Assembly: GCF_028858725.1 (NCBI RefSeq)
Contig: NC_084781.1
Location: forward strand, 5,402,513-5,466,512
Direction: 5' to 3'
DNA length: 64,000 nt
DNA from: Colius striatus
Taxonomy: Eukaryota > Chordata > Aves > Coliiformes > Coliidae
Each line of letters starts with the position of its first letter. Position 1 is the first letter of the stretch. Below are positions 2,053 through 62,420 of this stretch, in pieces. The position numbers and the translations under genes were made by a program. The notes below the pieces were generated by a model. That model saw nothing but the letters and a program-made list of their open reading frames with translations, was not told the origin of the DNA and did no database searches.

Positions 2053-5000
2053 CTAGAAGAGCTTCTATGTGTCTGCCATGCAGTTTCTTGTCAATCCATA
2101 CACTGTCTTCCCTAATCTGTTAATATTTTATAGTACCACTTGTCACCTCTGCAACTTATTTTGTGTCAGTTTCAGAGGTACAGATGACCTGGTAGGCAGA
2201 AACACTTGTTCTTTGTTTTTTTCACAGCATTTTCTAATAGACAAAAAACCCAAAGCCAACAAGAAGAAACTCTTCTGTACTTGCCATCTTTTAGAGTCTG
2301 ATTTATTTGCTTTTCTTCATGGCAGTCAGTTCTGTTGTGAGAGTAGTATGACTACATCAGTACAAAAAAAATTAATAAGTTACATTAAGTAATATATTTA
2401 TTGACAGGAAGGAACAATGAAACAATGTAAAGCATGCCTAGCAATGAATGCATAACTGTTGTAGAATATACTTTACAAGCTAGTTCAGTTTGGAGTATAT
2501 TGAATAAATGATACATACTAATAGCTTAAGGTTCCTTTCCTTTCACCTGAAAGGTTTCTGTGTAACTAAAAGAACTTGATTAGCATTGTATACTGGTAGG
2601 ATAGTTTTCTAGACTGTTAAGATTTCTTGTAAGCAAATTAATGTTTTCTTCACTGAGTGTTTATTGATGCACTTCTCTGTTTGTTCACCATACTGCTTCA
2701 TTCCTGCTTCTGTACATGATGCAGAATTTCTTGGTCAGTTTTCACTGAAAATCAGTCTTCCATGTCAATGGGTGTTGTATCTGATCCTTGAATCACGTGA
2801 CTAGAAGCTGGGTGACCTAGAAGATGCTCATTAATTCTCTTTAAATGAACAAAAAGTTCTGTGAGCATAGATGTGAGTTAAATTGCAAACGTGGAGGAAG
2901 AATGAGTGGTGGTGAGGAGACAGAGAAAAATCATCAGAGAACAAAATATTTGTATTTCCAAGTAAAACCTGGGATAAAAAGGAGTAAAGATTTCACATGA
3001 CTGAAACACGAGAGGGAGATGGATGAATATTCCATAGTATTATACAATACAGCATCTCATTCTGACTAAATACAGAAGAGTGATATTTAGCCATTCAGGA
3101 CATAAGAAATAGCAGATATGACCCAAATCCCAGTGGAATTCACTAAAACACTGTTATTTTTCAGTGAAAAAATCACGTTGTGCAGTACAGCTCTTGGAGC
3201 TTAACAATGAAGAATACCCAGTAAGAGGAAAGTAATCATTTTTTACAAGAAAACATAATGAGTACATTAAAAAAATATTCCCCAAATATGTTGAGTACTT
3301 AACACTAGATCCTGCAATGGTTACATGTGAAAAACCTCACATTTACTTCACCAGGAGATGATGCATACATGAGCTGGATCAGTCATTTTGTAGTTTGTGT
3401 AAATGTAGATTGCTTCGTATGTAGCAAACAGGGAAGTTTCATAGAAACCAGCTAATTCACAATCAGACATTGAAATCAAATGATACCAGGTCTGGGAAGA
3501 GATTTCTTCTTTTTTTTTAAACAGTAATTCTCTAATTTATAGGAATGCTACTGATATCTGGCAGCACAGAATAATTTAAGCTCATTGTTATCCTTGTAAC
3601 TTGTACAATTGCTTAGTGTAAAAAATTATTTGTAAAGTGCTGTTATGCACTTAAATTTTAGGAGAGTATATTATGCTGTTAGATTTCCCAGAGTGAAAGG
3701 ACGTGATTCAAAGCACTTTTTGTTCTAGACTTCACCTACAATGCATTATTGATGGCAAACTCTGATTGCATAGATAAAGAGCTCTTATTTTCTCTTTTCA
3801 ATGCTGTTACTGAGCATATGTTTTCTTTTGGACAGATTTTTTTTCTCAATGGAACTGCCTTAATTTATGACAACTCCAGCTTTCAATAAATTCAGAGCCA
3901 GATTGCACAAAGTATTAAATATAGCACATCAGATTTTGAGTTCTCATAGTTCATGTTGAAGCTGCCTGAGATTTTCAGCACAGATGGACATTAAGTTGGA
4001 CTATGGACACTGATTGTACAGTGCTGCTCTCAACATTAGTCTCTGTATGGTTAAAATTGAAGGGTTTTTCTTTTTTTCTTAAGCTAGACACCTGCATTAA
4101 AAAATTCTCAAGGCTTCAGAATGTAGAGCACCTACAACCCAAATGGATTTCAAAAGAGAAGTGTCAATGCTCAGCTCTGAGAAAATTAAGACCTAATCAT
4201 GTACCGGAGCATCTAAGAGTGAATACCTAATGCTTTTGAAACTTGGCTTGAGGGCTTTCCCCATTTGTTAGTTTGCTCCTTAATTCTTGGTACTGAGAAG
4301 ATATTTTCAATGGTCAGTTCAAACTATAATACAGTTGAAGACTGTTGCTGGCTGTTCTCTGTCTATTCTTCAGCAACAGTTGCAGCACATGGACAATGAG
4401 ATGCAGATAATGAGCCTTATCAGCATTTCCCTGGAAGGCAATAAAGCAACAAATATTCAGCTCAGTTTACATGCTAAGTGTTTCTTCTAATGCCACATAT
4501 TTATTGTTCTGTTTTCTACTTGGTTTTGGATGAGTAAGGAATGTTGCAAGCAAAAGAGATTCTGTGCAGAACTCTGGAGTTAATCTGAAATCTAAATCAT
4601 CAGGCAACTTTCCTGTCAGGATTAAGTGTTACACAGCAATGTAGGGAAGAGAGTGGAGCTAGCTGCTACATTACAGCTGGGGAATTGCAAAGACCTTGAC
4701 TAAGTGAAATCAACTTCCTATCACAAAATACCTTTTAGAATGGTGTCAAAGAGACCTGATGATGACGTAGAAAAAAGTTCAGAAAAGTTATCTGCTGGTG
4801 AGGGACTGGGCATTCTTCTCAGAGCATCCAGCAAACTGTAACCCTGTAGAGATGAAGAAACCAAACCAGTGAATTTCCAGTATTAAGTAATGCAGGTTTT
4901 ACATAAAGAACTTGTACTGATTTTGGCATGGCAAGACCAGATTATTCCCCTGGCCATAAGCCTGGAGAGGGTGACACATTTAACAGTTCAGGCAGTAATG

Positions 5001-8000
5001 AGATGAATTTAAACAATATTTTTCTACTGTGTGTGATCTCCTCCAGAGCATAACTGTTAAGAAGTTCCTAAATGACTTAAAATGTGTCTTCAGGTCTGTA
5101 TTTCTAATTGAAATTTTATCATGTTATCAATTTATCATATGATTGGAACTCATATCTGATGGAGTCAACAAAAACCCTGGAAAAGGTAAAAGGGCTGTAA
5201 CTTTTAGGCACTGAGTATTTGCTTGATCTTGACAAGAATACTGGAATTGATAACAGATACTCCATTATTTCAGTAGAGCAGAATTTTACCCAAGAAACTT
5301 AATCCTCTGTTAAGCAGCTTCTGCTTTTCAGTGTTTGGTGCTGCACCAAAACTACAGCAATAAATGTTGATACTGACTGGATAATTTGATTGTCTTTTAT
5401 GCCAGTCATGCAGGTTTGGAGTAGTTTTGGTGTCAAATACATATGGTAAGGGACAGAGAAAAAGAGCTCTTTCTCTTCTAAGAAGCTCCTGAACATCCCT
5501 GAGTAGAGTGACAATACTTTGGGTTGTAGCATTGTTTTATCAGCAAAAGAAGAATTGCCCTGGTGTTGCTTCTGTGATACCTCTGTCTGCTGTGCTGTGC
5601 TGTAAAATGTGGGAAATGAAGGCAGTATTGCTAGGAGGACTGGGGACAGTGTGGCAGCATGCTGTCAGCATCTGCATGCAACTTTACTCCAAATTCTAGC
5701 AAGTACAGCAGGCCCTAAAGCAGAGATGGGACCAAATGTGGTAAAAGCTTGTCTGGTGCTTTTTTTTTCCCCTGAAAAGGGGATTTTCTGCCCTATGCAA
5801 GATGAGGTAAAGCTGGGAGCAAAATCTGCTGTGTTTACAAGATGGTACAGCTTATGTTGCTGCATTTAGTTTCTCCAGTATGAATGCTGGAACCTGTGTA
5901 AAAGTGGCTTTAGATAGTTACCTCTTGAAGGATGTTCTGCCCGTTAGGTTTGTGAGCCTGAAGCAAGCTCATGAGTTCTGTGTTCTCCTCTATTTTTAAA
6001 TAGGTAGTGGCAGTTTGACATGAATTTAGTACCTGCAAACAACAGCAAGACCCATGATTGGAAAAGCAGAAGAAAACCTGATGTCATAGTCAACAGCCTG
6101 ATGCTGGTCCTCACCTGCAATTCAGGCTTTCCTCCCATTTGTAGCAGGCAGTTAATTCCCTCGAGGATTTGATCTCTGCGCAGCCTGAGAAACCTTCCCA
6201 TGTCAGTATTGATGTCAGTTCTGTGAGATTCTGCTACTAAGACAGTGTGGGCAAGAGCAGCACAGTGTAGTGGTGTTAAACCTGAAAGGAAAAAAAAGAT
6301 CATGGAAATGTCAAAGAAATCAACTGCTCCAACAGCCCAGAAAAGGTTTGTAGCCTGAAAGTTTGGGCGACTACGCTAAATGGGGGTGGTTAAGCTTTTG
6401 CTCTTACCGTAATGGTCAGTCAGGTTCACTTCCACACACACGCCGTTGCTTTTGCAATTCTTCAAAACCTGACATGAAGAAGATTGAGAAGTCCTGGTTT
6501 TTGTCAGTGCCAAAATACTTCTCAAGTTCCATCTTTCTTTAACCACACCAGCCCAAAGCTAATGCTCAAGTTTCTAAAGCCCGTGTCTGTTTTAAACAAA
6601 AGAACATGCCTTTCGTTGTCTTTGCTCTACCTTTGTTTGTATCTTTGTACAATATAAATGACCAGCTTACCTCCAAAACTCTCAAATATCCATTCTCTGC
6701 ACACAGATGGAGCGGAGTTTTCCCCAAACTGTCCTGCTCATTAACATTAGCTCCTAGGGATATCAGGTCACTCACCATCAGATGCTGGTTCTTTTCTGCG
6801 GCAAGATGTAGTGCAGTCTAAGAAGAGAACGATGGGGGAAACTCACAGTGATGGGCAAAAGTAGTTATAAATCAACATTACCTGTTACAGAGGTTTGCAA
6901 GTGATAGGAAATGACCCTATTCTTGACAAGTTAGCATCCTACCCTTTTCTCTGCATCCTTCTCATTGATCTTATTTAGGGATGCGAATCTCTGTGCAAGT
7001 GCGTAAGTCAGAGCTCTTCTTCCCTGAGCAACAGCTTTGTGCAACAGCCTGCAATAGAACAGTTTTAAACAATTAGATAAAGCAGTGGGTTAAATACCCA
7101 AAAGTAACAATAAGAATGTATTTTAGAGCATGAAATACTAAAGTTTGCAAGCAGTGAAATGTTGGGATATTTAATTGCTTATTTTGACTCTACATTACGT
7201 TGCTTATTTTGTCAGCTGGGATTTCTTGGTCCTCCCTTCTTGCTATTATTGTCATTCCTCTCCTTTCAGGAGCTATTCCACAATCCCTTTTTTGCTAATG
7301 ATGTTTCCTCCTCCTTTTTTAAAGTGTCCTTGAGTACAGGGAAAGGAGTGGAAGATACATAAAAATAAAAAGAAGGGAAACCCTCCTCTTGCATTTAAGA
7401 AGCATTTCCAAGCTATAATTCAATCCTGTGGAGGGGGAGAGCTTAATTTCTTCTGTATATTCATCCTCCCTGAACTACTCAAATTACTACAAATGTTCCT
7501 CCTGGATTTCATCTTAAAAAGGTTTCTTTTTCTTAAATTTGAGCATGTCTTTCCTTCTGGAGGAAAAAATTCGTGCCATCCATGCATTTATTTATGTCTT
7601 TTCCCATTGCCTTGTAACATGATAAGCTTGAAGATGTCTGGGGAACTCTGATACTTATTGCTTTTTCTATTCTTTTATTTTGTTTTGTTCTTTTCTTTCT
7701 TTGGCAGGGGATGTTGACACAGTAATTAATATTGTCCACCCTTCAGCATTCAGCAGAGCTCTAGGTTAGCTTCTTTAGTGTTTAGCGCTGTCTTTGTATG
7801 TTCTTGTGAGCATGTAATCTGATGTTTAAATACTTCACAGACGTAAGTGGGCTGCTGGGAGTTTTGCATGTGACTTTTATATTAACAAGGTAGGAGAAAT
7901 GTCTTAATTTCATAACTGTGATTAATGTCATTCAGGTGTGAAAGGCTTTTCTGTATTTAAAAAAACTGTATCCAGGAAATCTGGTAGCTTGTGGGTTTTT

Positions 8001-11000
8001 ATAACTTGGTTACTGTTACATTATTGCCAAAAAGTGAAGTCTAATTTTATTACTGCACTGGAAATAATAGTTATGAATGGAACATGGTACTTTATGGAAG
8101 AGGACAGTGCTGTGTTTAGTTTTCCCTGTGTATATTACTCTAAATTGGGTACAGCATTGTCCATTTGAACAGGAATTATCTTTCCCACCAAGACTAGGAC
8201 AGTTTGTCACATCATGCTTTCTGTCAATCTGATTTGATACCAGCTTCACCAAACCAGCTGAACTGTATAAAACCTAGTATGATATTTCAACTATTTTTTT
8301 AATAAATGATTATTTTCTGTATAAACATGACATTGTAGGGGAAATGGAATCCATAAAACCTTTGCTTTCATTTCATTTCTAACAAAACAGCCACTCCCAG
8401 TTCTTTGTAACTTTGTGCTCTAGATTATCAGCATATGTATGTTTTGGTGTTATCCTCCCACCCATTTTTATTACCAGCTAATACAAATAATTATCCTGAG
8501 TGTGTCTGCAGTATGGAAAACATTTCTTTTACATATCTCTTTTATGTTTTCAGTGGTAATTTCTTTTGCTCAATTTCAATTCTCTTGTGTATACCTAAAT
8601 GTACAACTCACTCTTTAGTATTATTATCGCTCTGAATTTGTCCTAATGTCAGCTGCAGTTTGGCAATACTAGTGTGAAATATGGAATCATTCTGTTCTTG
8701 CTATCTGCCTAAAATTGTATGTACTGGGGCAAGTTTGAGTTTCCAATTGAGCAAGGAAGCTTTTTGGTCTGCCCTAAACTAGCAGTTGAGATTAGAGCCA
8801 AGCCCGAGGAAACAGAAATCAGTGTATTTCAATAGAAAAATTGGAGACCTGTTGCCATTTTCATCAGGTGCCAGCAGTTTGTCCACTGGGATATTTCTCA
8901 GTAAACTTTCTTCCCTATGTAGCTGGAACTGGAAGAAAGAGATGGCAGAGAGATCCTGCTGTGTGAAAAACATTGGCGTTGACTTTGAATGTCCCTCAGT
9001 GTCTGAAGAACCTGTGTCAGCTTCCAGAAGCATCTCTGAACAGCCTCCTGATGGGTTAAAGTGTGGAGATGTGCTCTGTGAAGAATGCCTTGGGAAATCT
9101 TTCTGGGTACTTACACAAGCATCCCGTACCCACCAGCTACTCTCTTTCTCACTTGTCCTTGAGAATATTCCTGGCGAGTTGGACTCTTGCACGTTTCTCT
9201 GGTCGTCACAAAAAGAAGTCTCTACCTCTCCCCGTGGAACTGAATTGAAGTCTTTAAAACAGCAGTATGAATGCAACTTGGTTAAGCCATGCCATCTTTC
9301 CTGCAGGCCACCAGCTGCCTGCTTGCTTCCTCCAGTTTCCCATCGAGAGGCTTGCAGATCCGTGGAGAAGCCCTGCCGAAAGCCATCTGGCACGGAATGC
9401 AGAGACTCCTTCTTCACCTGGCTTTTGTTCAAATCTTCCTGCAGCACCTCCACCAGGATATCAAGGTCCTCTAAGCCTTTTAGTGTTTGCCCAATGCTGT
9501 GCCTGCTCTGAAACAGCAACAAAAACGGGGAGGGCAGAAGATGGGGGAGGAAAATCAGACATGAAGTATCCTGTTCTCACTCAGTGATATAATATGAAAT
9601 ATGCCCGAGGAGCCTGGCAGCACAAAGTTGAAGGTATTATGCATACCTGTCTAAGCTGTTTCTCTGTATAAGGGTGAACCCTTCTCTTTTCTGTTGGAGA
9701 GAAAGGAAGAAATGAGATATTTTGAGTTGGAGAAGGTGTGTGAGACATACAGAAGATATTCTCATCAGAAATATTGTCTCAGCACATTACACGGTGGCGA
9801 TGCACAGCTGGTCTGCTCCTGTAATTTAAGGGGAGCTAGGAACCAGAATGGGTCACTGGCCAGAGAGGAGTGGTCCAGCTCTTTGAGTACCTAACAGTGA
9901 TGATCCTACTAGAAAAGGAGGCTCTGTTATCAAGAGAGGAGTTTCCTAACCTGTTTTTCCTGAGGATCCTTTGGTTACCATCTTCATTAATGAGGCTTCC
10001 TGAGGAGACAAAACCACTCAACTCAATTTGAGATGCTTGCACATAAGAGAAGATGAAACAGCGGCAGATACTGTAACACGAACAGAGTAAATCGTGTCTT
10101 GCACTATGGACTTGCTCAGCAGAGCCTGATGAGGAATAAATTTCCATTAAGGGGTAATTCAGGGCAGCCTTGTAAAGATCTTTACAACAGACCAGGTATC
10201 TTGGAGTCTACCAACTTCTTGGACTGCTTTTGCAGTATTTTCAGTAAGCTGGGTTGCAAGAGCAAAATTGTTACTGGTTTTGGGGCCATCTGTGGCTTGA
10301 TTGCATGACATGTAGTATCTGAGGCATGAATGGGTTCTTGCTGTCACTGTCTTAAAAATGTTCTTAGCAGAGGCCTTCAGCCTGTTGGAAATTTGATATA
10401 TTCTCCACTTTGAGTGAAAGCATTCATGTGGTGAATGGAAGTGGCATCAACTGTAGGTGTAACCTCCAGAGCACTGGCAGAGCGGAATTGTGATGGGAGT
10501 GCACCAGGGTGTTACACCTCTGAGAGCAACCTTTGTAAACCCAGACAGAGTCCTCACCTTGCTGTGAGCTGGCTCCAGGCCTTTGGAAAGACGAATTTTT
10601 CTCAGTAATTCCCGTACTGGCATCTTCACTCTCACACCCATGTAGCGTTTCTGAGGGGGATCAGAGCTCAGTCCAGCATCTGGAAAAGTCATAACGTGAT
10701 GCTTAAAGCAATGTAATTCTCTGAGCTATTGTAGAATAGTGGGAGGATGAGGTGACCCTGAGAGGTAGCCTGTGAGTCTCGTGTTTGTCATCAGTTGTGG
10801 GAAATCTCCACATCACTCTACGTGTCCCTGGAGCTTGAGCCTGCTTCCTGCTTAACAGTTACTTTAATGCATTGTTTCTCAGGCTACAACACACGATGGA
10901 ACCTCACAAAGGGAGTTATTTTCTTAAGAAAGGAAACAAAAAGCCAAACTCCAAAGCTGGCTGTGGGATCTTCAGTCTGAGGGCATAAGCAGAGAGCTGA

Positions 11001-39106: not shown

Positions 39107-39122
39107 ATGCACTGGCAAAAAT
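39107..39122 (+). CDS. POU2AF1: POU2AF1 coding exon 1
   Basis: Sixteen coding bases, MHWQK plus one base, then donor GTAAGT. It is too short for ordinary ORF finding and was placed by its match to human MLWQK and by phase: the leftover T plus CT from 48919 makes Ser. An in-frame CTG lies four codons upstream; I see no reason to prefer it. Confidence 0.88.
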
Positions 39123-48100: not shown

Positions 48101-51100
48101 CCAAAATGGTACCATAATGGCCAGTCAAGATTAGACAGTATGCAGTGAGTCAGAAGGAGTTAATGGTAGAACAAAGATGAAGGGAAAGAAGTATTTCATT
48201 AAAAAAATCCAAAAATTAAACCAGATCTATTTATTCTGTAGAATGCTTTTTGAGATTGACTTGCAATGTCTGTATTTAGCCTCTGTTTTTCTCCCCCCGC
48301 CCAGAAAAGTGTAACAGAAACACCTCAGTGTGCATGTGATTGCATGCAACCAGGAGAGATGACCAGGAGTAAAACAGTTCCTCGTGTTCTGAGCCGTGGA
48401 GCACAGAGTGTAAATCTTATTAAATGCTTCCTGGCTGGAATAATATTTCAGGTTTCAGATTTGAGGGGAATATCCAACTGTACTTTACAAACCCAAAGGC
48501 CAGTGGTGATCTTTAGAAATGGAAATTTATCAATTAGCATATTTACAAATCCAAGTGCAGTCAAAAGGGGCAGGTAGCCACTACTGCTATCAGTGGCTTT
48601 ATAAACACGGGGCCTCCCTAAACTTTCATCTCCTGTGGGCTTTTTCTGCTATCAGTTACCTCCAAAGACTTTGTGTAAAATATGTGTTGATAGTATGGGT
48701 TTATGATGAGCTGTGTTTCCTCTGCTTTCACTTGTTGCAAGGCTTTGTGATAAGCCTTTTAAGCTGGCCAAAAACTTTACTTTACAAAACGGATTGGGGT
48801 TTGTGGGTATGAGCTCTCAGGCGGCTGCCATGGACATTTGGGATCTGCACAAATGGCAGTAAAGGGAAAATAAATTCCCCTTGGTTGTTTTTTTTTCCCT
48901 TCTTCTTTTTTCCTTCAGCTTCTGCTCCAGAACAGCAGCCACAGCCTCGCCCCTATCAAGGTGTCCGTGTCAAAGAGCCAGTGAAGGAGCTATTGAAAAG
49001 GAAACGGGGGAACGTTCATAATGCCAGTGCAACGGCAGCTACAACGGTAGGAGAGAAAATAAACATAGGCAGAAAGTTCTTCCTCAGTTGCTAAATGATT
49101 GACCAATCCTGGCAGCAGCTGGCAATACTTGGGCAAGGAAAAACATCTTTGCATCTCTAAAGCGTTTTGAAGGCAATGCAGCCTCATGTTACCTGGAGGT
49201 ACCATTGAATAGGTCTTCAGATGGAGTTTCTTTATGGTGCTGGGCACCTTCAGTCACCCATTGACTTAATGGAAGGGTGAAGGTGCATTAGATCCTTGTC
49301 AGGATCTAACTCCTAGGAATAGAAAGAAAGTGGCTTGGAATTTAAGCAGCTTGTTGAAGGGCACAAAGAGAGATCAGCCATAACCATCCTTGGCTATCTG
49401 CTTCTTAGTTTCAGCTTATCCTTCCAGGAGGAAGCAGACTGACTGGCTCCTCTCTGAAGAGGAATTCCCTCTGCAACACAAGATTTAAGCACTATTTAAG
49501 GTCCTCACAAGCCATGAAGGGACATTGGGCTGGGCCCACAAAGAAGGCTGGGGTTATGAGTACTGGCTGCCAGCCTCAGCTCTCCTCTCCCTTCTGTAGA
49601 GGCAGGTGGGAATATTCAGGCACTGATGTTGAAGTAGTAGCTGATAATAGCTAATATGCTCTGTTCCTCAATGCTCTTCAGAGGGCACTGAATTTAGTGC
49701 TTACAGTCTTAATCCCTGGGTGTTTTTCTTTTCTCTTCTAGGTTGTTTTGCCCCATCAGCCACTTCCTTCCTATTCACCAATGGGTAATGTTTCCCTGAC
49801 TTTTTAAATGTTTGTTAGCCCTACTGCAGGGAAGGCTCTGATGAACTGGGCTTTAATCCTCTCCTGTTTTTCAGGCCAGCCTTGCATTGATATAGATGCT
49901 GCTGCGTCTGCATTGCCTGTCACAGATGAAGGAGCACTCTGTTCTGGCTGGATCTCCCAGCCTTCTCCCACATCCTTACAGCCTTTAACTCAGTGGACCA
50001 CTTATCCTGACTACGTGTCCCATGAAGCAGTCAGCTGTCCATACACAGCAGATATGTATGTTCAGCCTATGTGTCCCAGTTACACACTGGTTGGACCTTC
50101 ATCTGTTCTGACTTACACTTCTCAACCTCTGATCACCAATTTTGCAGTAAGTCAAAATACTTAGGTACAAATGACAGCAAATTCCCCATTTCTAGCAAGA
50201 GCCACGGGAGACGTGTGTGTGTTTGCATCCTTGCCACGTGTTTTTGATTTGTTCTTCTTTAGGGAAGGACAGAGAATTTTGTTTGGCTAGAAGTCAAGCA
50301 GCTTATTTTAATGTTTCCATTGCTACATCTGACACACTGAAGCAGCAAAGGCTCATCCCTGCATCTTTTAGTGTTCTCTAGGGAGAAAGGGCTATCATTT
50401 CAAATGTGGCTCTTCTCTGGCTGCCAGGGGCTGGTCAGGATGGACCTTCACAGAGGGCAGAATAAGCTGCTTTCAGCCTTGTGGCAGCAAGGTTGTGCCC
50501 ATGCAGTCAATTCACAAGAGAGACCAGGACTGCAAGAAGGCAGTTTTTAGCACAGGGTGTAGCTGTCTCAGGGGCCTACAGCAAGGGTGGGAGTGGGAAC
50601 AGAAAGCTAGAGGGAACTTGACATGGGTGCAAGCTGCTGGCAGCAAGCACCTGGGACACCCACAGTCACCAGTCTCATGGGAGCCAGCGTGGGAAAACTG
50701 TCACACTCAGTATAACACTTTACTCAGAGAGACAGGAAAAGGGATGTTAGAAGTGAGACTGAGAATCCTTAATCTATTCTGTGTCCTTCCCCTGCTCCCC
50801 CTGGCCACTTGTTTTATTTTCATTTATTTCTCTTCTATTTCAACAGCCTCGAAGCACCACCCCTGCCGTCGTGCCTCAGCTCGAGGTGACAGATCAGCAG
50901 CCACCTCTCACGTACTTCCCATGGGCACAGCCCCTCTCTGCACTGCCAGCCCCTACTTTACAGTACCAGCCATCTTCTTCCACGCTCTCGGGGCCTCAGT
51001 TTGTGCCCTTGCCCATCTCCATCCCCGAACCAGCCCCTCAGGAGCTGGAGGATGCCCGTCGAGTCATCGGCACGCTGCCCATTGAGAAGCTGCTCTTAGA

Positions 51101-51158
51101 AGATGAAGATAATGATACGTATGTTTTAAACCATGCTCTCTCTGTTGAAGGGCTTTAA
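39107..51158 (+). CDS. POU2AF1: POU2AF1 (OCA-B/OBF-1/BOB.1), canonical short isoform
   Basis: B-cell transcriptional coactivator that binds POU2F1/POU2F2 on the octamer. Exons 39107-39122, 48919-49046, 49742-49784, 49875-50146 and 50847-51158 have consensus splice sites and give 256 codons, the length of human POU2AF1. The N terminus reads MHWQKSSAPEQQ (human MLWQKPTAPEQ). The OCA motif is at residues 17-36 (PYQGVRVKEPVKELLKRKRG), nearly identical to human. Further landmarks are VVLPHQPL, SHEAVSCPY, TADMYVQP, CPSYTLVGPSSVLTY, PLTYFPW, FVPLPISIPEPAPQELED and the tail LNHALSVEGL (human LNHTLSVEGF). The C-terminal half is the Pro/Ser/Tyr-rich activation region. The last exon contains an internal donor at 51119 that leads to ankyrin exons. 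Confidence 0.97.
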
Positions 51159-54100
51159 GTTGCACGTCTGGGGCCTGATTCTCACCTACTCAGTACTCCA
51201 CCTGGCACTACCATGAGTTTTGAGTACAGAGGGAAAGCAGGCTGGGGGTGGGATGGAAACTGTATTTGTGATTCTGTTGTCCACCTCGAGCACACCGAGA
51301 CTTGTCTGTTGTGTGTAACTTGCTTCGTCCTGGGGCCCAGCACAAAATTTCTCTGCTGTTACAGTTCCAGATATCTCTCCCAAGCAGCCTTTTGATACTG
51401 CATAGTTCTTGTGCTCAGCATCAGCACGAGGCAACTTTCATTCTCAGATAGTGTAGCCATGGCCAACTGTAGCATTTGGTGAGGTGTAACTCAGTAAGAC
51501 TGCTTTTCAGAGCTCAGCCTTGTTTGCTTGTCTTTGCCCTGTCCATGGAGGAACCTCTACCTGATCCAAGCCACTAGAAAACGTGGTTTTTTGGTGGCCT
51601 AAAATGACATTTTTTTCAAAACTGAACTGCTCCTTTGGAAAACAGGGACATGTAGTGGTTCTGTTCTGCTGGTGCAGGTAGGTGCATTAGTCTGGAGACA
51701 AATAGCCAATAAAGCTGAACTAAATGCCAGTGCATTCAGTCCATTTACAGAGCAACTCAAAGTAGCCTAGATGAAATGTTTGAGTTCACACAGAGGTGTA
51801 ACTTGAAGGTCTCACCTTGTCTGCCATTGGAAGACAGCCATGTAGGCATGGATTGGTTTGGAGTCATGCTCTTTCAGCTGCAGAATGTTTTTGGTTTCTT
51901 ATTGCTATGGAAAGTTTCTCTGTGCTGTGGTCTCTCAGGCCTATAGGTATATGCATTTTCCTTTAGCTTTCTGATTTTCTTTCCTGGAGAATGAGTAGCT
52001 TTACTTTTTCCTTCGATGCAAATGTAAATATTGTTGTTGATGTTCAGGAGTGCTGTGCCACAGGCAAATATGTTTGTAGGAGATACATTCCCTTCTAACT
52101 CAATTTATTGTTTTCTTAATAAACAAGAGACTCTTGAGTGGTGAACACAATTTCTCTGGGTTTTTCTGCTTTCTAAAGCCCAGGCTCCTTAAATGATTTT
52201 ATTATTTGCAAGACTAACTGCAAAATAATTTATTATACTGTTTCTTACCTGGTGCCCAGTTGCCACCCAGGCAATATTTCAAGTGACCGTACAGTTCATG
52301 ACTGAATGAAGTGTGCAAGCTCAGGGTGAGAGTCTTGAGGACTTTCAAAGCATATTGTGTTATTTAATATTGACTGTTCTGGAAGGCATGAGCAATAGAT
52401 CATAAAGTGTTTTGAAAACAGCAGTAGCTCAGGTGCATTGAAATTAGTGGCTTATATTTGCAGAAAAACCCAGCAAAGAAATTAATTAGAAGGAGCTTAG
52501 TTCACCACTGCTTACTCCAGTTTTAGAAGAACAAAGGTATTAAGTAGGCAAAACTGGGATAACGCAGTTGTGAATCAAGCCTGTGGTTGCTAAGATTGCT
52601 TTTCAATTTCTTTCACTCCAATGTATGTAAATTGTGTGTGTGAATATAAAACAATGATGAACTGTTTCAGAATTTCTTTCTGGGTTGTTCTGATTAGAAA
52701 AAGATAAAATCTTTTTCAATAAAGATCTACAGTAACTTTCACATGCCTAGAGTGTTTTCTTTCCTGTCCAGAATGGTGACCCAGCATTGGTTTAGTCATC
52801 AATCAATTCAATAATGTATGTATAGGCTAGAACAACAGACTGGTTGTTAGGCTTTCTGCTAATTTTGCATGTTAAGGCAAACTAAAGAGGAACTCTACAA
52901 CCCAAATATAACCCAGAGGACTCAAGCAGTCTTTACTCTCAGAAGCACTCCTTCAGTTCAGGTGTTAGTTCAACCACTACTATCCTCTACTGGCATTCTT
53001 GGGGATATGTGAGTGTATAGCCACAACCAATGCTGAGCTCAACTGAAAGTCAAGACTAGCCATAAAGTTGCATTTCTAGTTGCTGACATTGCAGGGTGTG
53101 GCTTTGGGGTACCAAATTACCCGAGGAAAGAAACAACTGCCTACCACCTTCTGACTAAAAAGGATCAAATGTTGCTGTCTGGAGTGAAAAAAACCCAAGG
53201 GCTCGTACAGCTACCTGTAGGGTGATCTTCTCTTGTGCATAAGGAAAGGAGAATTGGAAAGCTACCTGTGCATGCTTGGTGCTGTTGCAAATAGAGACAG
53301 GCAGCCAAAGTGAAGCAGTGAAGTGTTTTCCCTGACACTAAGGGCTGTGTCACCAGCAAGCCCACAACTGCTATGGGTTATGACAACTCTGTCCTATGCA
53401 AATGGTGAGGACTCAGTCCCTCCCACTGGGAGTTTTGATAAAGTAGAGCTTAAGAGGCTGTTTACAAATACGCTGATTAGAGGAGGCTGTTTGTTACCTT
53501 GGGTGGTGAGAGGTCACCAACACCTGCAAGCCTGTCTCCCCGAGGGATGATGCACACATAGGGTACGGTGCCCTTTCCATGGAAGTGGCCAGTTTCAAGG
53601 TCAAGCCTTTTGGGGCTTGTGGCATAGTTTAGTGGAACACTGAGCTTAAAATCCCCAAAGTGGCTATGCTACCCCATAAAACTGTTTGCTCTCAGGGCCG
53701 TTCATGGTCAAGCAGTGATCAGTGTCTTTATTTACTGTCTTAGAATTCTACATATTTATGCAGCTAAAGGTATGAGAGCGTTTACACTGGCAGCTGCAGA
53801 GCGCATGAAATTGCTGCGAAGACTAGATGCCAAGGAACACAGAGGAAAGGTAATATGGACCACTTTCTCCTGCAAAGAAAGGTGTTTGGGATGGGCATGG
53901 GCTTTAGGGTGACTGAGAGCAAGTGATGCCTAGAAAAACCCATGTCTGTGTTACTGCAAAGGAAGCCTTGGGCACTGATACACCTTGTTTAAGTGACTCT
54001 GTCAGGATCCTAAAATCAGGTGGGATGAGAATAAGCTTTTTCTCTTTTCAGCCTATGGTTCATACAGCACTCTAAGACAACACTGATCCAGGCAAATATA

Positions 54101-57100
54101 TTTATATTGCCAGTGGTCTCTGAGGCTGTAGGATTTATGAGTAACAGATTTATGCTAGGAGTGCTGGAGCTGACATGAACAGTCTCAAAGATGCTGGACT
54201 TGGGTTGTCATACAAATTATGGCTGAAGAGCACTTGAGGGCATTCAGCAGGGCCTGGGAAACTCCCCCCATTTTGTGATGCCATGGGTCCTAATTTATGG
54301 GATTCAAAATCTGTTTGTGAGCAGTCTTTGGTTTATGTGCCACAGCCCTTGGTATTCTGGATACTATTCAGCCCAGACTGCTTTTCCCTGTTCCTTGTTT
54401 TATGATAGCATCAGTCTCTAAACTCTCATATTTTATCTGCTGTGCTGCTATTTTCAGACTCCTCTGCTGGTGGCTGTCACTGCCAGGCAACCAGCTATTG
54501 TGTATGATTTGATCCAGACAGGAGCAGATGTCAATGCTGTAGACAACAAAGGGCAGTCAGCTTTACATCTTGCTGCAACATATGGTTATGCTCAAGTTCT
54601 TCAGGTAGGAAAAGCTTTTATGGCTTTAATTGCTAGCAATATAAACCTGAAAAGCCTCTCAATATTGATGTCTTTAAATATCTATCTCAGAGGGCAAGAT
54701 GTCAGTAAGCAATAAAAAGTGACCAAAGAGCAAATTAGCACGTTAGAAAAGGCACTGTAGGAATTCTTTGGAGGGATTGTATGGCAGAGAGAAGCATTCT
54801 GGAACGTGCCTCTTAAATGCTTAGTTATTGGCTATAAAATCAGAAGTAGTAAAATGTGCCTTCCTTGATTCCTGTCAGGACTGAGTATAGGCAGCTTCAA
54901 TGCACTGTGCCAAGTTTACCTGAGGACAGTGCTGAGTTTACCTGTGCTAGTGGCAGTGCCAGAGGGAGCCTGGCACCCTGGCAGTCCATCTCCAGTATTC
55001 ACTAGCTCTGCCTTGCACACGCCCTGGGTGAAGTCACCAGCGGACAGTTAATGTGTAACATTGAGAGTTCTCTGGAAAACAGGTGTTCCATTCAGTCAGG
55101 AAAAGTGGGTTAGATCAGATGGTTCCAACAAAGCCTCCTGGAGTACCTGATGGTGGTTTGAGGTTTGGTTTTTGTGTGGGGAGTTTTGTTTTCCCTTGAC
55201 ATAAAGAGTCAGTGCACTCAGGCTTGCTTCTCTGTGCAGTCAAAGCCATGAAGTGCTTTCAAGTTTGTTTCTCTCTTTATTCCAGTTGTGTTTTTTTTCT
55301 AATGGATTAAACACCTAATCTCTAATCATCAGGCAGCTCAGAACTACTTGTCAATATTTGATCTGTATATATTATCATTGTTATTATATTATTGCTATGA
55401 AAAGAGTGCCCAGGTCCTAACCATTCTGGGTAACCTCTCATCAGAAGGATTCTGTCTTGATCCTTGTCTGACCTGGCATGGTTCTGGATGAGTCACTGTA
55501 CTGCCAAAACTCTGAGCCAAGACTATTGCTTTATTCTCAGAGAAAAAAAACCCATGTGTTTCCTGTAATAATATGGGCAAGGAGCTACTTGGCAGCATCA
55601 CATCAAATCTTTCATTTCCTGAAGTTAAAGAGTTAAAATTTTCACTTTCTGCTAAATCCAGGCAATGCTTATCTCCAGATCACTATTTTCTAGGCTCTGC
55701 ACCCTTGCTTACCAAGAGTAACTAAGTAAGAACTGCTGTTACTGGTGCCTTTGCTTAATCCACAATGAAAGTGAGGAGGTTAACACTCTTGAACTGGGGG
55801 CACTGACTTTATTTTGTTGTTCTGAACTGAAGAATCTGATAGGATACCATACTTAGTTTAGGGAACTAGGGAACACAATCATCTTGTGTAACTCTGAATG
55901 TCCCTGTCAGGCCATAGATTCACAGCACTGAAATATGATGTCAAATAAGGGCTTAGTTTGTAGTTAAATTATAGTTATCTGTCTGTTTTGAAGTTTTGTT
56001 ACTGGCTTGGGTGGTATTCTGCTGCACTGAAACTTTCCATTTCTTTGTTGTTTCTAGGTTATACTGTCACTAGGTTTCCCTCTTGACTTAGAAATGAAGG
56101 ATTTTGAAGGTAAAACCCTTTGTGCAGGTATTTTATAGTGGTAATTAAAATATGTCAGAACACCATACTGGCTGTTTCACTGATGGATCCTCATGGGTGG
56201 TGTGCTCAGAGGTCAGAGTGGCCTTAGAAACCGCCTGGGGGAGAGTTGTTGCGGTGTGCTTAAATGCTGCAGAAATCAGAAGTGCTGAGGATTTGGTGGT
56301 GATTCAGTGCACAGTTGGAACTGAGCACCTGCTGGAATACACCACAAAGTGCCCATACAGCCAGTATGGAACCCTTGAAACCAGAAACGTGCTCGTGCCT
56401 CGGCAGTGCACGTGCAGGGATGCACACGCTCTCCCTGCCAGTCCTCCCTTCCTCGCTGTGCATGGGTGTTTTTGTTGCTACTGCCGCTATCTCCCTCCTG
56501 TTTTCCAGGCCATACACCACTCCACTGTGCTGTTCTGGCCCACAACGCCCTGCTGCGGGAGCAGGGTTGCCAGACATGGACAGAGGAGCAGCAGAAAGAC
56601 CTTCAGCACCAGAGCAAAGAGCTGGAATCCTGTATCCAGCTCCTGGTGCAGACGGGAGCCTCCATCTACAGCCGGGTAAGAGACGGGCTCGGTTATCCAT
56701 AGGCTGCTTGTGTGAGACCTCTCCCCTGCCCTGCCTGTGCTATGCTCAAACTGTACAACTGGAGAAGGAATGAACTGCTGACACAAGGACTAAGCCTCTT
56801 CCCTTTTCAAGTGACTGTAGGTTGTTGCTGCCTTTTGGAGTTACCTTCTTGCAGCCTGAGGTAACCACTGGGCAGTGAGGGGGTGCTGGAGGGAACGCTC
56901 CACGCTTGCTGCAGCCCTGCCCTGGACTTTTCTCCACTGAGTTTATACCTTCAGATTTTCTGCAGAACATTTCTGATTTTGTTTGGCTTTTCTCTTTTTC
57001 AATAGGATGTGAAAAGCAACAAAACTGTTCTGCATTATACAGTCCAGGATGGGAACATCTCACTGCTCAGATACTTCCTGGAGCTGAATGCTTTCAAGTC

Positions 57101-60100
57101 CAAGGACTTTGTCAATAACAAGGTGAGTCAGGCCATGCATGGACAGGGTTTGTGTGCACATCCATAGGTAGAGGAGGTTTTGAGAGCAGAGCAAGAGCTG
57201 TGCTGTGGTGGGAGGCTGCATGCAGGCCTTGGGACATCTGTGGGGTCCTGCAGAAACCAGTTATTCTCTTCCCACACACTTTTTTTTCTGGAGGGAAAGA
57301 GGAACGGTTTGTGTACCTGAACTTTTCTTTCTCTTCTTTAACCTGAACCTGCATTTTCCAGTCAATGGACATTTATCCTGGAAAGCAGTGTCTGAGGTGT
57401 GTTGTGAAACACAGGCCCCTCTCCCAGCAGACAGAAACTGAGAGAATGAGAGCAAAAGAACCAGGGAAGAGGAAGGACATGGGAAGCGGTTACTTGAGGG
57501 GGAACATGAACTTTATTACATTAGGCTGAAGACTGAGAAAAGAGATCTACAGTGATGCAATGGTTTGCTGTTGGCAGCAGTGTAACGCTGAAAAACAGCT
57601 CTTTAGGGCAACCATGTAGCAAGTAATCTCTCCTTTCAAATATGCTGTCCATAGGAAGCGTGAATCTAGGAGTAAGGGAGATGATGACTCTGCTTTCAGT
57701 GTTGTCTGTAAGTCTTCTGTCTCTGTGACTGGTTGTTGTGGCGGCTGCGTGCAAGTTTGAGCCTGAGGAATCAAACTAGACCCAGGGCCCACCAAGCCCT
57801 AACAGCTGCCAGGAGCAGTGACAGAAGACAGACATGAGCTACATGCAGTGAACCAGTGGCTGAGAGTGCCAGGCAGGTGGAACACGAGGAAAAACAGCTC
57901 TTTGAAGTGAGGCACACCTTGCTGAACAGATGGGAGCCGAGGCACTGTGGCAAGTCGACCACCTCTGGCTCTGGGGTGTCCAGAAGCTGCTTTAGGCACT
58001 CTATCCAACCCTGCTTACTCATCTGAAGTTTTGCTAACGTTGGCTCCTTAGCATGGGATTTTTGGAGGCACAACCATTCCTAGGTTGAATAAAGCAAGAT
58101 AGAAACTGTCCCAGTACTGCAAGATAGTGTCACCCATCCCCTCACTGCCCCATACTTCACCTCTGAGCAGATACCAAGCGGTGACACTATCTTGCAGCTG
58201 GATCAGCTTCACCAATCCTCCCAAGCAAAAAATCTCGACATTCCCGTGCCTTAGCTGAGACATCACTCTGCACCATCAGCCAGAACCTTGGATCTCGACC
58301 ATCTGCCCTCTCTCAGCAGTGCTATGTGGGTGATTCTGGTTGCTTGTGCAAAAGGGTACTCTTGAGCAGAAAAGGAGAGAAGGAGGGGAGGACAAGGCTA
58401 GGGCTCCCTGTTTTGAGAGAGTCAATGCATTAGCTTTTTATTTCAACAGTTTCAGTCTCTTCACCTTGCTTGTACTCCCTAAACCATCCACATGCTTGTG
58501 TCCATCAGAAAAGAACTGGTTTTTTTCTGTCAATGCAGCTGCTCACTTGGGAAGCAAATACTGGTGAGCTTCAGTTTTATTTCTCCTCTGCAGATTTCTG
58601 TTGGACTGGAGGAAACATACTTTCCTTTGTGTATGTGGGTAAAACACTGGGTTTGTTTTTCTGTGCAGAGAAGGACCTTACACTGCATTTTCACTACATT
58701 CTTTCTATATCTTTTAAGACCCATTTGGCAGGTGCTATCTTGCCTGTGAGGCTCTGATGTTGTCTCTTGATCACAATCCTGTGAGAGCACCCTACTGTGA
58801 TAGGATCACTTGGAGCCTTCAGTGTTGTTGGTGAGCTGTTTGGAACAGTGAGAAATATGATGGCAATGTTGTCTGATACTCATCCTGGCTTTTTAACTCC
58901 TCCAAGTATGAAGAAAACAAGAAAACAGGGATGCTGGAGTCCATGGCTTGGCTTTCCTGGCTTACCCACAGCTTGCTGTGGTTGTCTCATTCCAAATACA
59001 TATCCTTTTCACAAGGAGAAAAGTACTAAGGCCTTTGAGGTGTTTTTCATTTGAAGGATTCCTAGAGCCCACATACTGGTGCATAAGGTCTCTTCAAATC
59101 AATGGGAGGCTTCAAGATCAGGCATTGTCAGATTGCCATGTCTTCTTAAGCATCATGACTGGATTTGAAAGCTATCAAATGCTCCTGCCACAAAGATGCA
59201 GCAGATAGAGATGTTTCCATTTAAAGAAGTCCTGTAAAGAACTTGTAACTGTACCTTGACTCCATGGGATGATAAAATTGACAAGGATCTGTTTGTTCAG
59301 GGCTCATGAAAAAATGCCTGTCCCAGAACAGCTGTAAGGCTTTTGTGTTTTGTTTTGTGTTTCAGTGTCCCTGATGTCTCAGTGGTAAATAGGACCTGAA
59401 AACTGTGTGTATTCCTTTTAATGCCTGGAATAGTAACACACGTTGCAATTTGTGTCCAGCCATTGTGAGTTCAGGACAAACGTATGATCGTTTCCGAGAG
59501 AAAAAATACACAACTGCCTGAATGAGACTTCTTGCAGACTAAAAATACCTTGCCTCATGCATTTGCTTATTAGGTTTTTTTCATTTAAAACCGTTACCAG
59601 TCATACCTGACTAGGCAGGGGCACAGATTTCTACACGGTCTGGTGATACCAGGGCTTCTCTGCCACAAATTGCAGCACGCTCCGTCCCACGCTCCCGCCG
59701 TAGCTTCACAACACAATTTGTCCGTTGTGTCTGTGCAAACCCTGTCCCTGAAAAAGCTGAAGTTGGTATGTGCTGAAATAGGCTCTTGATCTCAGGATTC
59801 TACTTATGATGACACCGTGAAAATAAAGCCAAGCACCACCTTTAGCACTCTGCAGAGGAACCAGGAGAAGGTTTGAAGCCCAGTGGGATTTCTTTCTCCT
59901 GCTGCAGAGCCAAGCTACCTGCACCTCTGTTTGGTCCATGATACACAAAGTCCTTGTGTAGCCCATGTGTGATGAGTAACATGGCATAATGTGTGTTGTG
60001 AGGTGAAATAGTTCCTATGGTTTCTTCTGCATAAACACAGATGTTACATGGCATCTGTCCATCTCTCAAATAACTCATCTGATCTCTGCTTATGTGAGGG

Positions 60101-61067
60101 TACAAATTAGCAGGGGGTTGCAGAGTGGTTAGGAATGTTGCTGATACAAGACAATTTGTTATCTGTACCCAAAGCATCAAAGCCCCCCAATCTGTAGTGC
60201 TTTATCAGAGAGAAAGATCTGAATCCATAAATCTCCTTTCTCACACACGTGTGAGAAACAGAGCAGAGACACTCCCTCACCTCTCGGTAAGTAATCGGCT
60301 TCTTCAGCCCAGCAGGCTTCTTCAGCTCTCATTTCACAGGTCTCTGTTTCTGGGGCGATTTTGAGTAGGTGGCACAGCTTATCAGGAAGTTTCTCTTCCT
60401 TTCTCCTTTTTCTTCCACTGCATTAGGCTCATGGCAACACTGCTTTGCATATGGCAGCGGCGTTGCCTCGTGACAAGAACCAGAAAGAAATTGTCCAGTT
60501 GCTCCTTGACCACGGGGCAGACCCAAGCATCCGAAACCTAGACAATGATCAGCCAATCCACATGGCTCCCTCTGGAAAAGCTGGAGATCAAGTATGTGAT
60601 TGCTACTGCTTCCTAACACGTCTGTGCATACTACAACTCGCTGTCCATACCGGGGGAACAAAGAGAACAGGTTGCATGACTTGTATCTGAGGTTACAGTG
60701 GTGTAGACTTGGGGCTTCCTCCCTAATCAAGGAGCACAAACCAGCCATTAGCCTCCAAATACGTTTGGGGAGGTACCAATGTGTAGTTCTTGTAGTTCAA
60801 TGGCAAATCTCAAGAGATGATGGGCTTTCATCCCTACAGGTATGAAAAGGCTCTTGTAACTCATTGTAGTCTCTGCCATGTTTATATATGTGTATTTAGC
60901 TAGATGTATACATACAAGTCTGTGTGTGTATGTATTGGAGTGTCTGCATGCACGGTTTCAGATGATGCATTATGAACTTCTACATTTTTTGGCAGGTTAG
61001 GCATATGCTGAAGAAAGGGAGAGTTGCATCTGCATTCGTTTCCTGCCACCGAAATGCCAGATCCTAG
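39107..61067 (+). CDS. POU2AF1: Predicted long POU2AF1-ankyrin isoform (OCA-B/IkB-zeta hybrid)
   Basis: Exons 39107-39122, 48919-49046, 49742-49784, 49875-50146, 50847-51118, 53744-53849, 54458-54604, 56058-56109, 56509-56675, 57006-57122, 60427-60591 and 60996-61067 total 1557 nt, 518 codons plus stop, with every GT-AG and phase consistent. Residues 1-244 are OCA-B without its last 12 residues. Residues 244-518 are an IkB-zeta-type ankyrin domain (SALHLAATYGYAQVLQ, GHTPLHCAVLAHNAL, GNTALHMAAALPRD, LLLDHGADPSIRNLDNDQPI). Known relatives bind NF-kB p50/p52, so the product could bridge POU and NF-kB sites in the nucleus. The ankyrin exons are certain as homology; their joining to POU2AF1 is inferred from phase, order and homology. 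A separate promoter for the ankyrin exons is the alternative, but none was found. Confidence 0.78.
39123..48918 (+). other. POU2AF1 intron 1
   Basis: A 9.8-kb intron with no gene recognised. The segment 41860-42240 is clearly GC-richer than its surroundings, open in all three forward frames, and has a kB match GGGGCTTCCC at 42150-42159. It may be an intronic enhancer or alternative promoter. A long T/C tract lies at 47300-47340. The rest is AT-rich without recognised repeats. Confidence 0.6.
48919..49046 (+). CDS. POU2AF1: POU2AF1 exon 2 (OCA motif)
   Basis: 128 nt after a strong pyrimidine tract (CCTTCAG), donor GTAGGA. It encodes the POU-binding peptide RPYQGVRVKEPVKELLKRKR, which in the crystal structure of the mammalian protein contacts both POU subdomains and the octamer base pair. 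It ends ATAATT-type Ala/Thr linker residues (ATAATT), in phase 0. Confidence 0.96.
49742..49784 (+). CDS. POU2AF1: POU2AF1 exon 3
   Basis: 43 nt, acceptor CTTCTAG, donor GTAATG. It encodes VVLPHQPLPSYSPM plus a split Gly, matching human VVLPHQPLATYTTV-G. Reading on past 49784 reaches a stop soon, so splicing to 49875 is required. Confidence 0.94.
49875..50146 (+). CDS. POU2AF1: POU2AF1 exon 4
   Basis: 272 nt, acceptor TTTTCAG, donor GTAAGT. It encodes QPCIDIDAAASALPVTDEGA, then LCSGWISQPSPTSLQPLTQW, and SHEAVSCPYTADMYVQPMCP onward to TNFA. It is highly conserved with the human activation region, including the Tyr-rich CPSYT and VGPSSVLTY runs. Confidence 0.96.
50847..51158 (+). CDS. POU2AF1: POU2AF1 exon 5 (canonical terminal exon)
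   Basis: 312 nt to the TAA at 51156-51158. It encodes PRSTTPAVVPQLEV, PLTYFPWAQPLSALP, FVPLPISIPEPAPQ, then TLPIEKLLLEDEDNDTYVLN and HALSVEGL. The first 272 nt (to 51118) are shared with the long transcript; the final 40 nt are used only when the internal donor AC|GTATGT is ignored. Confidence 0.96.
   Translation, partial: PRSTTPAVVPQLEVTDQQPPLTYFPWAQPLSALPAPTLQYQPSSSTLSGPQFVPLPISIPEPAPQELEDARRVIGTLPIEKLLLEDEDNDTYVLNHALSVEGL
51113..51124 (+). promoter_or_regulatory. POU2AF1: Internal splice donor in the POU2AF1 terminal exon
   Basis: The Thr-Tyr-Val codons read AC|G TAT GTT, so a near-consensus donor GTATGT sits at 51119-51124. Splicing from 51118 to the acceptor at 53744 completes the Thr codon (AC + A) and continues ILHI, reproducing the NFKBIZ order DGDT-FLHI. 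The donor and acceptor phases agree exactly. Confidence 0.75.
51159..53743 (+). other. POU2AF1: POU2AF1 3' UTR, also the intron before the ankyrin exons
   Basis: AATAAA hexamers occur at 51708-51713, 52118-52123 and 52718-52723. The last is followed by a T-rich, GT-containing stretch and would give a 3' UTR of about 1.6 kb. Perfect octamers lie at 52016-52023 and 53396-53403. No open frame with coding character was seen. If the donor at 51119 is used, the whole stretch is removed as a 2.6-kb intron. Confidence 0.7.
52718..52723 (+). terminator. POU2AF1: Likely main poly(A) signal of short POU2AF1
   Basis: AATAAA followed within 40 nt by a T/GT-rich downstream element. Earlier hexamers at 51708 and 52118 may serve as alternatives. 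Confidence 0.5.
53744..53849 (+). CDS. Long isoform, first ankyrin exon
   Basis: 106 nt, acceptor CTGTCTTAG, donor GTAATA, needing two bases from upstream. It encodes ILHIYAAKGMRAFTLAAAER then MKLLRRLDAKEHRGK, matching NFKBIZ FLHIAVAQGRRALSYVLARK then MNALHMLDIKEHNGQ. Length and phase equal the minus-strand exon 6943-7048. The incoming phase is what the donor at 51119 supplies. Confidence 0.92.
54458..54604 (+). CDS. Long isoform, second ankyrin exon
   Basis: 147 nt, 49 codons, acceptor ATTTTCAG, donor GTAGGA. It encodes TPLLVAVTARQPAIVYDLIQ, TGADVNAVDNKGQSALHLAA and TYGYAQVLQ. The GADVNAVDNKGQSALHLAA core is textbook ankyrin and the exon aligns with NFKBIZ. The minus-strand counterpart (6671-6817) has identical length and phase. 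Confidence 0.95.
56058..56109 (+). CDS. Long isoform, third ankyrin exon
   Basis: 52 nt, acceptor GTTTCTAG, donor GTAAAA. It encodes VILSLGFPLDLEMKDFE plus a split Gly, matching the NFKBIZ bridge ending FVDLEATNYDG. Too short to stand alone; supported by phase and homology on both sides. Confidence 0.88.
56509..56675 (+). CDS. Long isoform, fourth ankyrin exon
   Basis: 167 nt, acceptor TTTTCCAG, donor GTAAGA. It encodes HTPLHCAVLAHNALLREQGC, a Gln/Glu-rich insert (WTEEQQKDLQHQSKELES) and CIQLLVQTGASIYSR. This insert between the LHCA helix and the next helix is characteristic of IkB-zeta (LHCAVIAHNAVVHE, then IKCLIQMGAAVEAK). Same length as minus-strand exon 6115-6281. Confidence 0.94.
57006..57122 (+). 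CDS. Long isoform, fifth ankyrin exon
   Basis: 117 nt, 39 codons, acceptor TTTCAATAG, donor GTGAGT. It encodes DVKSNKTVLHYTVQDGNISL then LRYFLELNAFKSKDFVNNK, matching NFKBIZ DRKSGRTALHLAAEEANLEL then IRLFLELPSCLSFVNAK. Consensus is better kept than in the minus-strand paralogue. Confidence 0.93.
57123..60426. other. 3.3-kb intron of the long isoform with an antisense transcript-like patch
   Basis: Between 57500 and 58330 the minus strand has overlapping open frames (58266-58048 and 58073-57771) and ends with an AATAAA (57517-57512 on the minus strand). I recognise no protein in them and the frames overlap without splice logic. The patch contains the inverted repeat described separately. The remainder is unremarkable intron. 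Confidence 0.4.
58117..58197. repeat. Perfect 18-bp inverted repeat with 45-nt loop
   Basis: CTGCAAGATAGTGTCACC at 58117-58134 is matched by its exact reverse complement at 58180-58197. Transcribed either way, it would form a stable stem. It could be a small-RNA precursor, a remnant of a nonautonomous DNA transposon, or chance local inversion. No known microRNA sequence was recognised. Confidence 0.8.
60427..60591 (+). CDS. Long isoform, sixth ankyrin exon
   Basis: 165 nt, 55 codons, acceptor TGCATTAG, donor GTATGT. It encodes AHGNTALHMAAALPRDKNQK, EIVQLLLDHGADPSIRNLDN and DQPIHMAPSGKAGDQ, matching NFKBIZ YNGNTALHVAAS, LLMRKGADPSTRNLENEQPV and HLVPDGPVGEQ. This is the clearest IkB-zeta signature in the window. 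Confidence 0.95.
60996..61067 (+). CDS. Long isoform, terminal coding exon
   Basis: 72 nt to TAG, acceptor TTTTTTGGCAG. It encodes VRHMLKKGRVASAFVSCHRN and ARS, aligning with the NFKBIZ end (IRRILKGKSIQQRAPPY): a short basic helix then a free tail. Confidence 0.88.
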   Translation, partial: VRHMLKKGRVASAFVSCHRNARS

Positions 61068-62414: not shown

Positions 62415-62420
62415 AATAAA
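62415..62420 (+). terminator. Candidate poly(A) signal of the long isoform
   Basis: AATAAA about 1.35 kb after the TAG, followed by a CTGTTTCTTG stretch. Confidence 0.45.

Follow-up and report, generated by a model that had tools for sequence, protein, structure and literature searches.

OCA-B, the product of POU2AF1 (also known as BOB.1 or OBF-1), is a textbook B-cell coactivator. The OCA motif of another coactivator, IkB-zeta, is reportedly the subject of a primary paper by Alpsoy (2024). IkB-zeta, encoded by NFKBIZ, is described as a coactivator that serves both NF-kB and POU factors and has an experimentally confirmed OCA motif (PMC12807641, PMC11393961), and the latter source also names its p50-binding residue. 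According to these accounts, there is already one known protein that combines an OCA motif with ankyrin repeats and links POU factors to NF-kB. A 2026 review of OCA-B presents POU2AF1-3 as a cluster, gives the origin of OCA-B in its section 6 only as arising in jawed fish, and does not use the words "ankyrin" and "NFKBIZ" in its main text (PMC13043367). In the same review, OCA-B is said to have only one mRNA, from which two start sites are used; we counted this against a longer form. Composite terminal exons produced by intronic polyadenylation are reported as common in immune cells, with IGHM as the classic case, and they made up 1648 of the 2675 classified intronic-polyadenylation isoforms in one human atlas (PMC5928244).

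We examined a window of 64,000 nucleotides (C29:5402513-5466512, in a probable bird genome of 1.21 Gb and 191 contigs) in which an earlier note had proposed that POU2AF1 can be spliced in frame into an IkB-zeta-type ankyrin domain. All positions below are those of the window unless another contig or locus is named. The reading we favour, with a probability of about 0.8, is that POU2AF1 is a complete NFKBIZ paralogue, whose transcription unit would give two products, one of them a 518-aa protein of ancestral architecture.

The POU2AF1 locus and its ankyrin exons

Exon modelling recovered 12 plus-strand exons between 39107 and 61067, with GT-AG borders at 11/11 introns, that joined into 1557 nt encoding 518 aa, the terminal TAG being the sole stop in frame; exons 1-5 correspond to POU2AF1 and exons 6-12 to the ankyrin domain. 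The length and the open frame claimed in the earlier note were thereby reproduced, as were all its coordinates: the start of exon 5 at 50847, the donor at 51119, the acceptor AG at 53742-53743 and the ankyrin exons at 53744-61067. The coding part of exon 1 (39107-39122, reading MHWQK plus one nucleotide, with a GTAAGT donor in phase 1) was chosen among 11 short ATG-to-GTRAG candidates in 11001-48900, based on this reading and its fitting phase; a pattern built on the human POU2AF1 start found no match. After joining, the N-terminus can be aligned from residue 1 with the OCA-B peptide in 1cqt. Exon 2 (48919-49046) carries the OCA motif RPYQGVRVKEPVKELLKRKRG (1cqt_I, E 1.4e-14) and is followed by exon 3 (49742-49784), exon 4 (49875-50146) and exon 5. 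Exon 3 begins in phase 0 and ends in phase 1, like NFKBIZ exon 2, and exon 4 begins in phase 1 and ends in phase 0, like NFKBIZ exon 3. Exon 5 has two forms: it either runs from 50847 to 51158, through the internal donor to the TAA at 51156-51158, giving the canonical 256-aa POU2AF1, or it ends at 51118 (50847-51118), in which case it begins in phase 0 and ends in phase 2, like NFKBIZ exon 4. The Pfam model PF09310 (PD-C2-AF1) covered residues 7-245 of the 518-aa protein with 450.5 bits, and the remainder matched ankyrin models. Together with the 1cqt peptide and the neighbouring POU2AF3, POU2AF2 and mir-34 loci, this match identifies the gene as the POU2AF1 orthologue.

The seven ankyrin exons lie at 53744-53849 (106 nt), 54458-54604 (147 nt), 56058-56109 (52 nt), 56509-56675 (167 nt), 57006-57122 (117 nt), 60427-60591 (165 nt) and 60996-61067 (72 nt, last coding exon with the TAG stop), all on the plus strand. 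They comprise 826 nt without an internal stop, a frameshift or a broken splice site; when joined, the coding frame holds the terminal stop only, and the other five frames hold 9-12 stops each. We searched the joined protein without its first six residues (512 aa) against 177,635 distinct PDB sequences using phmmer. Among the best 60 of the 437 that matched, the top chain was 9bor, NF-kappa-B inhibitor zeta (IkB-zeta), with 224 bits and an E-value of 2.9e-65. Its single alignment covered residues 218-496 of the 512-residue query, running from POU2AF1 exon 5 across the 51118/53744 junction into the repeats. Another ankyrin family as the source of these exons was rejected, as IkB-zeta was both the best PDB match and the one with a common exon structure, and on the same grounds we assign the domain to the IkB-zeta type of atypical IkB proteins.

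POU2AF1 belongs to a larger cluster. A genome-wide search for OCA exons recovered at least four places: POU2AF1, two others to its right on the same contig (C29), and NFKBIZ on contig C1. This count is a lower bound, since the search missed a further OCA gene within the window (gene B, described below). The two loci to the right are on the minus strand and correspond to POU2AF3 (OCA-T2) at window coordinate ~69.5 kb (best match 9pfn, E 8.9e-13) and POU2AF2 (OCA-T1) at ~80 kb (best match 9pfp, E 5.9e-12). They share the OCA motif and the cluster with POU2AF1, but an ankyrin domain was not found in them: a tblastn search to the right of POU2AF1 with E up to 5 returned only two chance-level pieces, one inside a POU2AF3 exon (E 3.8) and one with E 3.2. 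Ankyrin exons in either gene were rejected on this basis, and POU2AF3 seemingly ends in a plain last exon, as judged by eye.

The order of the region is mir-34, gene B (-), POU2AF1 (+), POU2AF3 (-), POU2AF2 (-). Two mir-34 precursors were located ~32 kb to the left of the window (L012:7476-7546 and 6842-6908, minus strand) in a scan that covered 134 kb and left out L010 and L014. At human 11q23, mir-34 also lies near the POU2AF cluster, and the two mir-34 loci therefore support synteny with that region. Of 141 ORFs in the left flank, the 40 longest were inspected by eye and included what are presumably SIK2 and LAYN. In a duck study, LAYN, POU2AF1 and POU2F3 are among the candidates of one chromosome 25 region (PMC8962612). 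Long minus-strand ORFs ~5.8-16.6 kb to the left of the window start encode a repetitive "PVLGVTIHPHTGQKL"-like protein and a cysteine-rich "CPPGTFRSEGA" segment, and account for one or two genes between mir-34 and gene B. A tRNA scan returned none.

Exon layout of NFKBIZ and of a second OCA-ankyrin gene

The NFKBIZ gene of the same genome was modelled with 11 exons and 618 aa, counted from an ATG in the OCA exon. Its layout follows that of POU2AF1 exon by exon. The OCA exon ends in phase 0 in both genes, and the following exons run 0-1, 1-0 and 0-2 in both, so that the intron phases from the OCA exon to the pre-ankyrin exon are 0, 1 and 0, in this order, in either gene. From the junction on, POU2AF1 and NFKBIZ share both column and phase at seven of 7 introns in an alignment made from the proteins only. 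The ankyrin exons of NFKBIZ measure 106, 147, 64, 170, 111, 168 and 54 nt, the first two being identical in length to those of POU2AF1. In the ankyrin part, 119/266 aligned residues (~45%) are identical, so the description of this domain as closely matching NFKBIZ was a fair one, and the exons proved to be, as the note had proposed, intact, of IkB-zeta type and in register with POU2AF1. Nucleotide identity in the same part was 0.556, 0.654 and 0.365 at the first, second and third codon positions, a pattern as expected under long protein-level constraint, although it does not date that constraint.

We also found a second gene that appears to combine an OCA motif with ankyrin repeats, on the minus strand at the left of the window (gene B). 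Its OCA exon (10558-10679, first full codon at 10677) carries KRYMGVRVKMPVRELLRKIR. The pre-ankyrin exon (8849-9507, phase 0 to 2) ends with RNIPVDKLLAPDENGNR (also written IPVDKLLAPDENGNR), where the last codon is completed by the next exon. Six ankyrin exons follow within 4721-7048, at 7048-6943, 6817-6671, 6468-6408, 6281-6115, 6032-5922 and 4843-4721, the last one with a TGA stop at 4721. Their lengths (106, 147, 61, 167, 111 and 123 nt) agree with those of POU2AF1 in exons 1, 2 and 4 and with those of NFKBIZ in exons 1, 2 and 5. The first repeats are intact and the last are eroded, and the model holds no seventh ankyrin exon, no first exon and possibly lacks a small exon; a 44-nt candidate at 9690-9647, picked by eye, was rejected for its misfitting phase. 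From the junction on, 5/6 of its introns share column and phase with POU2AF1 and fall in the same columns as those of NFKBIZ, and the sixth lies in the eroded stretch.

Gene B matched IkB-zeta (9bor) in one stretch over query residues 1-209 with 153.5 bits; twelve chains ranked above it through summed short matches, namely ten designed repeat proteins, NOMPC and ankyrin-1. When the stretch before the junction was included, identity was 124/287 between POU2AF1 and NFKBIZ, 101/261 between NFKBIZ and gene B, and 76/253 between POU2AF1 and gene B. The OCA motifs of NFKBIZ and gene B scored 19.7 and 14.2 bits against PF09310, both under its cut-off of 25.7 bits. Gene B was rejected as an orthologue of POU2AF2 or POU2AF3, since those two genes lie on the other side of POU2AF1. 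It appears to be a second, divergent OCA-plus-ankyrin gene and the fourth OCA gene of the cluster, and it appears new within the literature searched.

These comparisons bear on the possibility of a recent fusion, in which a copy of the NFKBIZ ankyrin exons would have been inserted behind an unrelated POU2AF1. Both genes are present in this genome, as such an event would require, but their ankyrin domains are only ~45% identical, the match to NFKBIZ is not confined to the repeats but continues before the junction and includes the intron phases of the N-terminal part, and gene B has the same architecture. We therefore consider a recent fusion very improbable.

The 51118/53744 junction

The internal donor GTATGT (51119-51124, plus strand) lies within the canonical last coding exon and closes the long form of exon 5 at 51118 in phase 2. 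Joined to ankyrin exon 1, it reads DNDT-ILHI, and the same-genome NFKBIZ reads DGDT-FLHI, also in phase 2; the claim that this splice would be in phase and recreate the NFKBIZ junction was borne out. The residues before the junction, TLPIEKLLLEDEDNDT in POU2AF1, are homologous to NISQDQFLAKDSDGDT in NFKBIZ. There are 12 GTs in exon 5 up to the canonical stop, four of which are phase-compatible with 53744, and only that at 51119 is at the homologous place: the 22 residues before this join gave a score of 27 with NFKBIZ and of 36 with gene B, whereas scores for the remaining three phase-compatible GTs were below 0. Shuffled versions of these 22 residues scored as well in 1/20,000 cases against NFKBIZ and 0/20,000 against gene B; without the last five residues the resemblance was weaker, at 58/20,000 and 3/20,000. 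From these scores and shuffles, the donor is placed at an old exon end inside the canonical last coding exon. A chance in-frame join was rejected, as the junction is homologous to those of NFKBIZ and gene B and only 51119 fits. Because both these genes share its place and phase, the junction is predicted by homology, beyond mere permission by phase.

The long-form intron after exon 5 (51119-53743) is 2625 nt long and contains the canonical stop and three AATAAA motifs at 51708, 52118 and 52718 (51708-52723, plus strand), which are candidate 3' ends of the short form at the level of motif matches. A weak in-exon donor with three AATAAA in the next intron, again at motif level, would be compatible with a composite terminal exon. 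For the long form, a candidate poly(A) signal, also a motif match, is found at 62415-62420 (plus strand), with another at 63786. Reading from exon 5 into the intron gives the canonical C-terminus YVLNHALSVEGL, including a 12-residue tail that is presumably conserved in mammals; reading NFKBIZ past its own donor gives an immediate stop instead (DGDT*).

The same intron is where the ankyrin exons could have a start of their own, if they were a separate IkB-zeta-like gene next to an ordinary POU2AF1, with its promoter and first exon in 51.2-53.7 kb or further off. Upstream of the exon at 53744, the frame reaches a stop at 53625 without passing an ATG; translation of the ankyrin exons therefore requires either a spliced upstream exon or an internal start. 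Five ATG-to-phase-2-donor mini-exons with a donor score of at least 5 in 51159-53743 could lead into 53744 and would serve a separate gene, though short frames of this kind easily arise by chance. Exon 5 of POU2AF1, however, is itself homologous to the pre-ankyrin exons of NFKBIZ and gene B and has the same phase-2 end, so that the piece missing from a separate gene would be precisely the one that POU2AF1 supplies. Automatic annotation can split genes of this kind. A trout paper has separate entries for pou2af1 and an IkB-zeta-like gene, which at face value favours two genes but is therefore no argument for them; the two entries rather hint, across differing assemblies, at a zeta-like gene near pou2af1 in fish too. 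On balance, we regard a separate gene as unlikely.

The donor at 51119 is weak: it scored 1.78 bits in a small matrix built from 27 local introns, in which the 27 other local donors ranged from 1.27 to 11.54 (leave-one-out) and only 2/27 were lower, and 985/3793 plus-strand GTs scored as high. The pre-ankyrin donor of NFKBIZ is stronger (5.53 bits), and that of gene B, CAG/GTCTCC (8849/8848, minus strand), is about as weak (1.42 bits). The weak donor at 51119 fits a regulated or minor choice, and equally decay. With decay, the ankyrin exons would be a relic that once belonged to POU2AF1 and is now unused, with only the 256-aa form being made. Their CpG content, compared with that of introns as a gauge of present constraint, would agree with this, as it is not clearly higher (390/5000 intron samples were as high). 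Yet the seven exons are free of internal stops, frameshifts and broken splice sites over their whole 826 nt, a condition in which unconstrained exons are not expected to remain for long at general neutral rates. Moreover, the repeats align with the solved IkB-zeta over nearly their whole length, and a donor as weak as that of gene B before its own ankyrin exons argues against reading weakness as decay; perhaps the two weak donors represent a shared regulated junction. A relic seems to us slightly less likely than a separate gene.

Two predicted products and their relation to known systems

The exon-by-exon match to NFKBIZ and the sole homologous donor at 51119 lead us to prefer one ancestral OCA-plus-ankyrin gene with OCA-B as its short form. 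The evidence, all of it at sequence level, points to OCA-B as a relative of IkB-zeta that has been shortened: the ancestral architecture is likely that of the 518-aa form, and the 256-aa form would be derived from it by truncation. In part, this departs from the interpretation in the earlier note: the ankyrin exons in register and the homologous junction stand, but the arrangement does not look like one gene splicing into its neighbour, since the whole of POU2AF1 is laid out like NFKBIZ.

In the predicted mechanism, ignoring the donor at 51119 and using an intronic AATAAA would form a composite terminal exon and yield the classical 256-aa OCA-B, whereas use of the donor would join the seven ankyrin exons and yield the 518-aa form. 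In the long coactivator, the OCA peptide would clamp a POU2F factor on the octamer and be connected through a middle part to the IkB-zeta-type ankyrin domain at the C-terminus, which is predicted to bind NF-kB p50. We infer that both RNAs are made, that the choice between them is regulated, and that the long protein binds p50 and POU factors and is nuclear.

All OCA genes would, by common descent, share an OCA-ankyrin ancestor. A wider scenario, which we consider somewhat better than an even bet, would derive OCA-B, OCA-T1 and OCA-T2 from an IkB-zeta-like OCA-plus-ankyrin gene and the OCA-B tail from intron sequence after the old donor that came to be translated. A full-length OCA-B that binds p50 and octamer-bound POU factors would then still be made in birds, and perhaps in other non-mammals, under the control of intronic polyadenylation, and another OCA-ankyrin gene would be its neighbour.

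An ankyrin-bearing POU2AF1 was not found among the literature matches listed, in agreement with the novelty claimed earlier, and automatic database annotations may already hold such a model. The idea of a POU/NF-kB bridge is not new, being known from IkB-zeta, but the layout of POU2AF1 as a full IkB-zeta paralogue appears to be, within the literature searched. Should OCA-B prove to be a paralogue of IkB-zeta whose ankyrin domain was lost or can be skipped, OCA coactivators and nuclear IkB proteins would form one family, and the C-terminus of OCA-B would be explained. In bird B cells, a single protein may then integrate octamer and NF-kB signals, for which mammals use two.

Among known systems, the secreted/membrane IgM switch of IGHM would be of the same kind, with a donor in a terminal coding exon and poly(A) signals in the next intron, which in POU2AF1 are candidates; the switch is observed in IGHM and predicted from sequence in POU2AF1. 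Relative to OCA-B as found among the literature matches listed, the POU2AF1 of this genome has seven further ankyrin-coding exons. NFKBIZ differs from it in its location (C1, compared with C29 for POU2AF1), in a longer pre-ankyrin exon (764 nt vs 272 nt), and in ankyrin parts that have diverged to the ~45% identity given above. POU2AF1 and NFKBIZ have in common an N-terminal OCA motif, seven ankyrin exons whose boundaries and phases coincide, and the same junction before the first repeat.
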